Below the pieces are notes generated by a model that saw only the letters and a program-made list of their open reading frames with translations, did not search any database and was not told the DNA's origin. The translations under genes were made by a program, and so were the position numbers. Of a DNA stretch of 64,000 bases, positions 14,421 through 49,930 are shown one piece after another. Each line of letters opens with the position of its first letter. The first letter of the stretch is position 1. Source of the stretch: Henckelia pumila (taxonomy: Eukaryota; Streptophyta; Magnoliopsida; Lamiales; Gesneriaceae); NCBI RefSeq assembly GCF_033568475.1, contig NC_133120.1:81010151-81074150 (forward strand), written 5' to 3'.

Positions 14421-15936
14421 TTACACTGCTTTCACAGCTTGGAACCTTGGCTCCTTAGGCAAGAACTTTTGTTCAGCATAAACAGACATGTAGTCCCCAA
14501 ACACAAACTTAGGATACTTGGCCGGCGAATTCTCGGCAACTTGTAGTAGTTTCTTCTCGGCCTGCAGTACCAATAATTCCTTGGCAGGTTCGATGGTGGC
14601 CTTATAAGACGGGTTGTAAAACGAGGCGATGGATCTCCTGTTCCCTTCCGGCAATGCCAGAACACGATGCCACACACTCTTGTACTTGCCATTGCTCAAC
14701 ACTTCGATCTGATCGCCCGTGTTGATCACTATGGCGTTTTTCATCGGCTGAACGTCCATCCAAACCCCGTCTTTCAGGATTTGGAGGCCGTTCACTACGT
14801 CGTCTTGGAAGAGCAAGATCACGCCTCCTGCATCCGTGTGTGCTCGGAGGCCGTTTACCTTATCTGGCCTCGGGCACGGAGGGTAGTGGCTCACCTTTGT
14901 CCCGAAAAAGGCCGAGTTCTCTTCTTCTTCTTCTTCGACTTCTCCTCCGTTGAACGCCTTGTTGATGTACCCTTTTGGGAGGCCTAAGTTCTCGTCCATC
15001 ACTTCCATCACTTTGATCGCCAGTTTCTTCAGTTCAGCTCGGTATTCCTTCATGGTTTCCCTGTTCATTGTAAATAATATTCAAAATCATTAATTCTCAG
15101 AAAATTATTTAATATATATTAATTCCAAGAACAGCTTAATTATAGGGAAAATTATTTTTTTAGCCCTATATGTTTGTCACTTTGCGATGTTGGTCTTCTA
15201 TATTTTCAGATTTTAGTTTTAGTCCGCTATTTTTATTTTTTTGGTAATTTTAGTTCTTTTTCTGATGTACCGCTGATGTGGCACCAATACAGTGCTGATG
15301 TGGAGCTGACGTGTATAGTGCCACGTAATCATTTTCGAATAAAAAAGACTGAAATTGCCAAAAATCAAAACATGTAGAACTAGAACTGAAATACGAAAAC
15401 ATAAAAGACCGAAATCGCAAAGTGACAAACATAAATGATCAAAATTGCAGTTTCTCCTTAATTATATATCAACATACTTGAAACCAGGTGTTTTTGAAGG
15501 CCATTCATGATGATTGTCATCAGAGAGCAAGAACACATCCTCCCAATCAACGCTTTCTACTAAACTTTCATCGCTTTTCTTCTCGATCAATTCCTTGAGC
15601 AGATTAACGGGTTTCGAATTCTCGAACCCGCCCTCTCTTTCAAACTTGTAGCATTCAGAAGCAACCTTTTTCACCTTTTCCAGGAGATCCTCAGAGATTC
15701 CATGGTTGATCAACTGTTTCACAACACCATATTTCAAATAATTTAATTAGCACTTTTCTTCATGTAAATAATATTGCATGAACTTAATTATAATAGGATT
15801 CAAATATTAAAGCTGGCTAGTACTAGTACTGTACCTGAAAGAATCCCCAGTCTTCACAGCAATTGGCAATCTGAGTTAGGGTTTTGGATCTCTCATCTCC
15901 ATTGAGTTTTGAGAAATCAATCACAGGGATCGCCAT
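14421..15936 (-). CDS. ACO5-like: 1-aminocyclopropane-1-carboxylate oxidase-like, copy 1 (ACO5-like)
   Basis: Three exons, 15936-15835, 15713-15478 and 15060-14421, give 325 residues with GT..AG junctions in phase. The product is a 2-oxoglutarate/Fe(II) dioxygenase-fold enzyme of the ACC oxidase group, which in family members converts ACC to ethylene in the last step of ethylene synthesis, using ascorbate and bicarbonate. Visible are the N-terminal DIOX_N part ([21 protein letters not shown]), the iron ligands in RAHTDAGG and WHRV, and the RxS motif in [13 protein letters not shown] that binds co-substrate. A run of glutamates (VEEEEEEN) lies in the middle. The sequence resembles Arabidopsis ACO5 (At1g77330) as I remember it. 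Intron 2 holds a Mutator-like MITE. It differs from the second copy mainly in exon 1 (for example Thr instead of Ala at residue 21). Confidence 0.93.
15145..15457. mobile_element. Mutator-like MITE, family A, copy 2, in intron 2 of ACO copy 1
   Basis: A 313-bp foldback element with the same internal blocks as the copy at 13227, flanked by an exact 9-bp duplication TTAATTATA (15136-15144 and 15458-15466). It makes up most of intron 2. The duplicate ACO gene holds the same insertion at the same site with the same 9-bp duplication. Confidence 0.92.
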
Positions 15937-16041
15937 CAAGATTATATGTATAACAAATCAATAAAAAACGCAGATTATATATATATAGCTAGGTTTTTAA
16001 ACTTTTCAGAAATTATGCTCTAAAATTAACGTTCCTATAGG

Positions 16042-16054
16042 TCTATATATACAG
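16042..16054 (-). promoter_or_regulatory. Candidate TATA box of ACO copy 1
   Basis: On the minus strand GTATATATAGAC lies about 110 bp upstream of the ATG at 15936. Position and sequence fit a TATA box, but the area is generally TA-rich. Confidence 0.4.
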
Positions 16055-16849
16055 AGAAAGTAGAGCTATTAATTGTTTTTTTTCCCTTCATTTGTCATGG
16101 CATCTTTGATTAATAATAAAAATGTCAACGCTATTTATTTGTTTAACCCATATATATTTAGAGCACATCTGTGGTATGTATCTACTGGTACTTAATCATT
16201 TATGTTTAATTAAATGTTTCAATTAATATTAACGAATAAAAAGAATGTTAAAAGTTATTTTGGTATTAATTTTACAATATAGTTTGTGCGATCTTCTCCC
16301 CATTAACATATATAAAATTATGTCGATCATGTTCTATCCCGATGTCCGATATTTGACCAATAAATATCTGGGTGACACCGCATATTATTCTTTGTTGTAT
16401 AATAATAAGAGATAATTTGATAAATAAATTCGAAGAGTCAACGACATTAAAATATTAACGTATCAACCTCCTTTAATTTTTCTTTTTTCTTTTTAAGATG
16501 TATCAACTATACAATCAACCTCCTTGAACGAACCTTTACGTGCTAAACAATACTCTTTGTCCTAAATCACGCAACATGACACCAAATACGTACGTGGTTG
16601 AATATATACAAATACAACGTATATACATGATATCTTTTTCCATCAATTAAAATTGAATTTCATTCATGACTAATTTTTTTTATATTTGAAGAAAAAACAA
16701 AAAAAATAAACAAGCACTTTAATTAAAATTAACAAATTATTCAATATAAAATACATTATATTTGTATATAATATTTTACACATGCAACTCATGTGCTCCG
16801 TCGCTAATATATATATATGAATATGGTCAATCCTTTTTTTTTTACAAGG

Positions 16850-47706: not shown

Positions 47707-48303
47707 ATATAAAAATTAGACCAAAGAAGTCACGGTGTGCAGTATTTTCATATAAAAAAATTCGGAATTTTGTGGTAGCAATCCAAAAAATCCCCATATA
47801 TATGCATAATGCAATTTATATATATTACATATTAAATCCAAAAAAAATATTATACATGCTGAAGGTGCGCTAGCTAGAGGGTAGAGACCAATGAAAGTGC
47901 TGGAATTGACAATTTAACCTAATTCCATTGAAAGTGGAGTTGACATTGTAAACTATTGTTTAAGATCAAACCCCAATAATTAATCTCGCAACGTTGACAA
48001 TTTTTAGCTAATTGCGTCAAGCTTAGGCAAATAATACTTATCAATCACAATTAAAAACGATCGAGATTCAAGGTACATATATATAACCTGAGCAAGAATA
48101 CTTCTGTTGTGGGGTGTATTAATTATATTACATTGTTTATTATATTAATAAATATATAAACGCAATATTTTGACCTTAACGAGTTTTGACATTGTGTCGC
48201 CGCCCATTCCATTACCGTAACGGATACCGTAATACTAAATTAAATAAATTATTAATTAATAAATACAGAAGCGTTGACATTATTCTTGGGAGTATTGCTG
48301 CAA

Positions 48304-48311
48304 TATAAATA
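48304..48311 (+). promoter_or_regulatory. TATA box of ACO copy 2
   Basis: TATAAATA lies 141 bp upstream of the ATG at 48452 and is followed by GGCCAACATGCAAAC. It differs from the promoter region of copy 1, so the two genes are probably expressed differently. Confidence 0.6.
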
Positions 48312-48451
48312 GGCCAACATGCAAACTTCTTAAGCACCAAATTAAGCATTCTTAATTAGAACTGCTATTTAACTGCAACAACAGCAGGAAATCTTAAGCT
48401 TTATTTCTATAATTATATATACATATATATTTAAACTTTGATATATTTTCC

Positions 48452-49930
48452 ATGGCCATCCCTGTGATCGATTTCTCAAAACTCAATGGTGACGAGAGAT
48501 CCAAAACCCTGGCTCAGATTGCCAATTGCTGCGAAGACTGGGGATTTTTTCAGGTACAGATTTCTTTAATATTCTAGGATTCTTGCATTATAGGCTCGTG
48601 CACTATATATATTACATTAATTATATATATGCACTTGTACGTGAACAGTTGATCAACCATGGAATCTCTGAGGATCTCCTGGAAAAGGTGAAGAAGGTTG
48701 CTTCTGAATGCTACAAGTTTGAAAGAGAGGGCGGGTTCGAGAATTCGAAACCCGTTAATCTGCTCAAGGAATTGATCGAGAAGAAAAGCGATGAAAGTTT
48801 AGTAGAAAGCGTTGATTGGGAGGATGTGTTCTTGCTCTCTGATGACAATCATCATGAATGGCCTTCAAAAACACCTGGTTTCAAGTATGTTGATATATAA
48901 TTAAGGAGAAACTGCAATTTTGATCATTTATGTTTGTCACTTTGCGATTTCGGTCTTTTATGTTTTCGTATTTCAGTTCTAGTTCTACATGTTTTGATTT
49001 TTGGCAATTTCAGTCCTTTTTATTCGAAAATGATTACGTGGCACTATACACGTCAGCTCCACATCAGCACTACATCAGCGGTACATCAGAAAAAGAACTA
49101 AAATTACCAAAAAAATAAAAATAGCGGACTAAAACTGAAATCTGAAAATATAAAAGACCAACATCGCAAAGTGACAAACATATAGGGCTAAAAAAATAAT
49201 TTTCCCTATAATTAAGCTGTTCTTGGAATTAATATATATTAAATAATTTTCTGAGAATTAATGATTTTGAATATTATTTACAATGAACAGGGAAACCATG
49301 AAGGAATACCGAGCTGAACTGAAGAAACTGGCGATCAAAGTGATGGAAGTGATGGACGAGAACTTAGGCCTCCCAAAAGGGTACATCAACAAGGCGTTCA
49401 ACGGAGGAGAAGTCGAAGAAGAAGAAGAAGAGAACTCGGCCTTTTTCGGGACAAAGGTGAGCCACTACCCTCCGTGCCCGAGGCCAGATAAGGTAAACGG
49501 CCTCCGAGCACACACGGATGCAGGAGGCGTGATCTTGCTCTTCCAAGACGACGTAGTGAACGGCCTCCAAATCCTGAAAGACGGGGTTTGGATGGACGTT
49601 CAGCCGATGAAAAACGCCATAGTGATCAACACGGGCGATCAGATCGAAGTGTTGAGCAATGGCAAGTACAAGAGTGTCTGGCATCGTGTTCTGGCATTGC
49701 CGGAAGGGAACAGGAGATCCATCGCCTCGTTTTACAACCCGTCTTATAAGGCCACCATCGAACCTGCCAAGGAATTATTGGTACTGCAGGCCGAGAAGAA
49801 ACTACTACAAGTTGCCGAGAATTCGCCGGCCAAGTATCCTAAGTTTGTGTTTGGGGACTACATGTCTGTTTATGCTGAACAAAAGTTCTTGCCTAAGGAG
49901 CCAAGGTTCCAAGCTGTGAAAGCAGTCTAA
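48452..49930 (+). CDS. ACO5-like: 1-aminocyclopropane-1-carboxylate oxidase-like, copy 2 (ACO5-like)
   Basis: Exons 48452-48553, 48649-48884 and 49291-49930 give 325 residues, the same length and intron positions as the copy at 14421-15936. The Fe(II) ligands ([12 protein letters not shown]), the RxS motif (NRRSIASF) and the C-terminal [20 protein letters not shown] are all intact, so an active ethylene-forming enzyme is expected. The ATG at 48452 is the only start in phase with exon 2. The protein differs from copy 1 in exon 1 only, as far as I compared. Intron 2 contains the same MITE at the same site, here 11 bp shorter. Upstream sequence, intron 1 and the 3' UTR do not resemble copy 1. 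Confidence 0.95.
48905..49206. mobile_element. Mutator-like MITE, family A, copy 4, in intron 2 of ACO copy 2
   Basis: 302 bp, flanked by the 9-bp duplication TATAATTAA (48896-48904 and 49207-49215), the reverse complement of the duplication around the MITE in ACO copy 1. Apart from an 11-bp deletion near the centre and about one base change it equals that element, so it is the same insertion event copied along with the gene. Confidence 0.93.

Follow-up and report, generated by a model that had tools for sequence, protein, structure and literature searches.

The 64,000-nucleotide window of Henckelia pumila analyzed here (C1:81010151-81074150, without any N, in an assembly of 884.66 Mb and 133 contigs) contains two 1-aminocyclopropane-1-carboxylate (ACC) oxidase (ACO) genes, referred to as A and B, that lie in opposite orientation 33 kb apart. 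A first-pass annotation had proposed an inverted ACC oxidase pair at 14421-15936 (minus strand) and 48452-49930 (plus strand), which both the alignment of the two genes and protein matches confirm.

Two inverted type III ACC oxidase genes

The genes and their first exons and introns are located as follows (window positions):

15936-14421, minus strand: gene A, predicted type III (Arabidopsis-ACO5-like) ACC oxidase; three exons, open frame, 325 amino acids
15936-15835, 15713-15478 and 15060-14421, minus strand: exons of gene A
48452-49930, plus strand: gene B, inverted paralogue of gene A; three exons, open frame, 325 amino acids
48452-48553, 48649-48884 and 49291-49930, plus strand: exons of gene B
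15835-15936, minus strand: exon 1 of A, outside the near-identical tract described below
48452-48553, plus strand: exon 1 of B, outside the tract, compared with exon 1 of A
15714-15834, minus strand: intron 1 of A, 121 bp; no clear homology to intron 1 of B or of a third copy, C
48554-48648, plus strand: intron 1 of B, 95 bp; homologous to intron 1 of pseudogene C

The two proteins differ solely at residue 21, which is T in A and A in B. The B protein matches solved ACC oxidases over its full length (5gj9, E 4e-90; 1w9y, E 2e-89), a 2-oxoglutarate-Fe(II) (2OG-Fe(II)) oxygenase domain is found in exon 3 of gene B, and the His-Asp-His iron site and an R-R-S motif are present in an alignment read by eye (HTD, SVWHRV, NRRS). 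On these four lines of sequence evidence, A and B are assigned to the group of Arabidopsis ACO5. The R-R-S motif is described as a mark of type III ACOs, and 'type III' is a safer label than 'ACO5' because the tomato gene of that name is given as type II (PMC6549523). Type III enzymes such as Arabidopsis ACO5, as portrayed in that source, have the R-R-S motif and the His-Asp-His Fe(II) site in common with A and B, which differ from them in being duplicated and in carrying an intronic miniature inverted-repeat transposable element (MITE). A six-frame protein search of the genome returned further loci at 57-61% identity (C3:27482613, C3:195747751 and C4:1868744), which probably represent the other ACC oxidase genes, along with many weaker matches.

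A sharply bounded tract of near-identity

From the start of exon 2 to the stop codon, the two genes are nearly identical through coding and non-coding sequence alike:

14421-15713, minus strand: tract in A, very probably homogenized, 1293 bp; six substitutions and one 11-bp indel relative to B
48649-49930, plus strand: corresponding tract in B, 1282 bp

Exon 1 differs at 8 of 102 bases, exon 2 at 1 of 236, and exon 3 at 2 of 640 (both in V codons, at B 49678 and 49927), while intron 2 has three substitutions in 406 aligned bases and the 11-bp indel; the alignment thus agrees with the exon counts and the near-sameness of intron 2 first reported. At synonymous sites, 7 of 20.3 differ in exon 1 (synonymous divergence, dS, 0.46) and 3 of 182.7 in exons 2-3 (dS 0.0166), for a dS of 0.051 over the whole coding sequence, and the contrast between exon 1 and exons 2-3 gives Fisher P = 1.4e-6 on exon sites and 3.1e-6 on synonymous sites with rounded counts. 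The identity therefore covers silent and non-coding sites: 6 of the ~589 neutral sites of the tract differ (3/182.7 synonymous, 3/406 in intron 2), which makes them ~45 times less diverged than the synonymous sites of exon 1.

Permutation tests of the same kind as those of GENECONV were applied to exon 1, exon 2, intron 2 without its gap columns and exon 3 (1384 sites with 14 differences, intron 1 excluded). A single breakpoint fits best after site 96, directly beyond the last difference of exon 1, and 0 of 5000 permutations fit as well; the longest identical coding run was equalled in 8 of 20000 permutations, and in 25 of 20000 with third positions alone. By both breakpoint and run length, the stretch of identity between A and B is longer than chance and sharply bounded.

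Could a single, uniform duplication age account for this pattern, with strong purifying selection acting on exons 2-3? The enzyme core is conserved among distant ACC oxidases, as such selection would have it, but identity at synonymous sites and across the intron 2 transposon is almost as high as at the amino acid level, and protein constraint is not the source of the identity, because an intron made up mostly of a MITE differs at just 3 of 406 bases. A uniform age, which also fails the breakpoint test, is thus extremely improbable. Its inadequacy, already argued in the first-pass annotation, is borne out by the contrast in dS (0.46 vs 0.017) and by the permutations, and the comparison of ages set beforehand gave different ages for exon 1 and exons 2-3 within this genome.

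An assembly or polishing artefact is another way in which exons 2-3 of one copy could have received the likeness of the other, near-identical paralogues being open to mis-polishing. Both genes are nevertheless part of a single 183-Mb contig, each with flanks of its own, in a window free of N, and a plain collapse would not have left the six scattered substitutions and the 11-bp indel that the tract still shows. At the sensitivity of the genome search, exon 3 matched nowhere beyond A and B in the 884.66-Mb assembly, and no further copy of it turned up on another contig. Such an artefact is highly unlikely.

The limits of the tract are those of detectable homology between A and B. For intron 1, whose reported lengths are correct, the likeness of A and B is marginal (20 of 1000 shuffles do as well in local scoring, 13 of 1000 in global) and the alignment unstable (14/87 with 42 gap columns in one run, 38/94 in another); the two introns lack clear homology. 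The 300 bp before the ATG show weak likeness at best (21/300 shuffles as high), and 250 and 100 bp past the stop codon are no closer than shuffles (122/300 and 227/300 as high), in agreement with the earlier statement that similarity ends there.

Two candidate signals from these regions were set aside. A common 12-base word, 196 and 182 bp before the respective ATGs, was rejected as a sign of promoter homology, its length being matched in 118 of 1000 shuffles. Intron 1 was dropped as a direct measure of the pre-conversion age, the A-B alignment being barely above shuffles, and was used via simulation only.

A third copy gives a further view of the boundary. A genome search with window positions 48400-48900 yielded three candidates, all of them scored, which are B, A and a fragment, C, 53 Mb from A and B:

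C1:134464004-134464363 (L011:4005-4364): copy C, which retains intron 1, the greater part of exon 1 and a portion of exon 2; in-frame stop codons mark it as a pseudogene

Across intron 1, B and C differ at 14 of 91 positions (0 of 1000 shuffles score as high), while A and C are not clearly closer than shuffles (234/1000 locally, 36/1000 globally). In exon 2, the differences from C number 25/172 for B and 26/172 for A, a few of which stem from the end of C that does not align, against 1/236 between A and B. The nearest relative of B is thus C across intron 1 and A in exon 2, and so switches at the intron 1/exon 2 junction, as judged from distances and shuffles rather than from a tree. At the single site where A and B differ in exon 2, C agrees with B. 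Exon 1 places A and B at near-equal distances from C (20/101 and 19/101, a few of these from the unaligned start of C), and neither these distances nor those of exon 2 tell the source copy of a conversion from the receiving one.

A rival account holds that the whole gene was duplicated recently and that the promoter, exon 1 and intron 1 of one copy were then replaced from a third, diverged paralogue by exon shuffling; the lack of clear homology of intron 1 of A to that of B or C is in keeping with such a replacement. However, the 3' flanks are likewise unrelated, so a second breakpoint, independent of the first, would have to lie at the stop codon. Moreover, A has an in-frame ACO exon 1 that is 92% like its counterpart in B, and any donor of it would itself have to be ACO5-like; and the sole further copy with exons 1-2 among the three scored candidates, C, has a B-like intron 1. 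Exon shuffling is accordingly very unlikely.

The surroundings of C are of interest in themselves. The ACO fragment, intron included, is embedded in a hAT transposon copy. Two further copies in the genome are ~88% identical to its upstream part (L011:1299-4003) and 84-86% identical to its downstream part (L011:4460-4624). The ACO piece plus ~95 more bases stands where those two copies have ~120 bp, and one open stretch of the hAT repeat (L063) matches hAT transposase domains. An identical 20-bp direct repeat flanks C (L011:3834-3853 and 4403-4422). The arrangement looks like the capture of a gene fragment.

Probable ectopic conversion and the MITE of intron 2

Ectopic gene conversion very probably homogenized A and B from the start of exon 2 to the stop codon; the ~1.3-kb conversion tract put forward in the first-pass annotation finds support in the divergence, the permutations and the switch relative to copy C. 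A and B would be old duplicates of a type III ACC oxidase gene. Much later than the duplication, one copy would have suffered a break or strand invasion that was repaired from the other, so that ~1.28 kb was overwritten and the rest not exchanged. Non-reciprocal repair from a paralogous template would explain a two-sided, sharp tract running through coding and non-coding sequence alike, and the tract would end where homology ends, intron 1 and the 3' untranslated region being too diverged to pair. At a distance of 33 kb and in inverted orientation, the copies could pair in cis, between sister chromatids or between homologues, and a crossover inside the tract would invert the spacer.

Several points weigh against this interpretation. 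The similarity of A and B in intron 1 and the 5' flank is marginal, not zero; the dS of 0.46 for exon 1 comes from only ~20 synonymous sites and has a wide error; and within exon 1, four sites group B with C and three A with C, which gives no decision. The older duplication is deduced from this genome alone, and although we infer a single last event, several conversions would look like one.

Comparable cases are known from other systems. In the inverted Amylase pair of Drosophila, concerted evolution is described as limited to the coding sequence, with flanks that appear independent, and Hsp70 is another palindromic pair under conversion (PMC3924832). These are linked inverted paralogues like A and B, which differ from the pairs as presented there in being plant genes 33 kb apart, known from one genome, with exon 1 outside and an intron inside the tract. 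Among plants, HMA4 of Arabidopsis halleri is reported as a set of paralogues whose coding sequences, like those of A and B, are homogenized by ectopic gene conversion, while promoter segments keep separate histories (PMC3749932); that account concerns three tandem copies with recurrent conversion, population data and a selective sweep, whereas A and B are two inverted copies in one genome. No paper title on gene conversion of ACC oxidase genes was found in the literature naming both, other wordings and subscription journals being outside this scope. The pair is a new, clean example of a known process, and a naturally occurring record of ectopic conversion between plant paralogues in inverted orientation, in which the limits of homology mark both ends. 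A and B keep their own promoters and first exons and share one enzyme body. Dating them by the dS of the whole coding sequence (0.051) would give an age ~9 times younger than dating by exon 1 (0.46).

Most of intron 2 is made up of a MITE, present in both genes at the same target site, and the family has two other copies in the window:

15145-15457, minus strand: MITE in intron 2 of A, 313 bp, with TATAATTAA on either side
48905-49206, plus strand: the same MITE in intron 2 of B, inserted at the identical target site, 302 bp (11 bp less than in A), with the TATAATTAA duplication
13227-13541, minus strand: separate copy of the same family (BLAST limits), with its own 9-bp duplication, TTTATTTTA
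45930-46242, plus strand: separate copy of the same family (BLAST limits), with its own 9-bp duplication, TAGTTTTTT

The ends of the element, GG-rich/A-rich and the reverse complement, form terminal inverted repeats. In a scan for target duplications, the intronic one was scored as 10 bp (TATAATTAAG), and the best-scoring duplication was 9 or 10 bp long for 32 of the 37 copies compared (33 from the genome, two from elsewhere in the window, and those of A and B; no shuffled control). Copy number is high: a whole-gene query gave 2795 first-look candidates in the genome, 40 of which were scored, and 38 of the listed places are MITE copies outside the window, 33 of them retrieved. We take a target duplication of ~9 bp to point to a Mutator-type element, and by its inverted ends, ~9-bp duplications and copy number, the intron 2 insert is classified as a Mutator-like MITE.

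The intronic copies of A and B differ from each other at 3 of 302 positions, and from the consensus of the 33 copies at 25/313 (A) and 23/302 (B), distances that are perhaps somewhat low, since similarity to the query determined the ranking of the 33 copies. When all 37 copies are placed in a maximum-likelihood tree, the branch joining the MITEs of A and B to the rest measures 0.099 (bootstrap 100). Provided that the tree is correct, this length sets a maximum for the time since insertion, because closer unsampled copies would shorten it. Polarized with the 35 other copies, the differences between the two intronic elements place two substitutions in the element of A and the 11-bp deletion in that of B, while one further difference splits the copies 18 vs 17. 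These polarized changes, like the one in exon 2, date what followed the conversion, not its direction.

Did the MITE insert before or after the duplication? If it were as old as the split of A and B, the probability of at least 7 of 20 synonymous differences in exon 1 would be 0.058 at 0.105 substitutions per lineage and 0.024 at 0.085, and introns simulated at 0.21 pairwise drop as low as the observed A-B score of intron 1 in 22 of 1000 cases (fewer indels) or 93 of 1000 (more). The insertion thus probably postdates the split, with borderline significance, and clearly predates the homogenization (~0.01 pairwise), which is suggestive of an insertion between duplication and conversion. The simplest history would be duplication, then insertion of the MITE in one copy, then conversion of exons 2-3 with the intron between them. 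We slightly favor the view that the element hit intron 2 of one paralogue after the duplication, and that conversion, not transposition, copied it and its target duplication to the other. If so, the second perfect target-site duplication was made by no transposase, and the sharing of a transposon together with its target duplication does not prove an insertion to be older than a duplication. This reading has a parallel in the Hsp70 promoters of Drosophila, several of which are described as having transposon insertions in common within a species, taken to antedate duplication or conversion (PMC2793543).

Other features of the window

A tandem array with a period of 123 bp occupies window positions 8493-9530 (seven overlapping 300-nt copies), inside an open frame of 1762 amino acids (5567-10855, minus strand) that has no Pfam match at E 1e-5. 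Between A and B, pieces of a Copia-type retroelement lie at 24845-39972, with an integrase part (24845-27118) and a reverse-transcriptase part (38950-39972) ~12 kb apart, and a 75-bp direct repeat at 42753-42911 has two copies, 85% alike, whose starts are 84 bp apart. Beyond gene B, an open frame with an endonuclease/exonuclease/phosphatase domain (54160-55527, plus strand) adjoins another with SPARK and protein kinase domains (56023-57903, minus strand).

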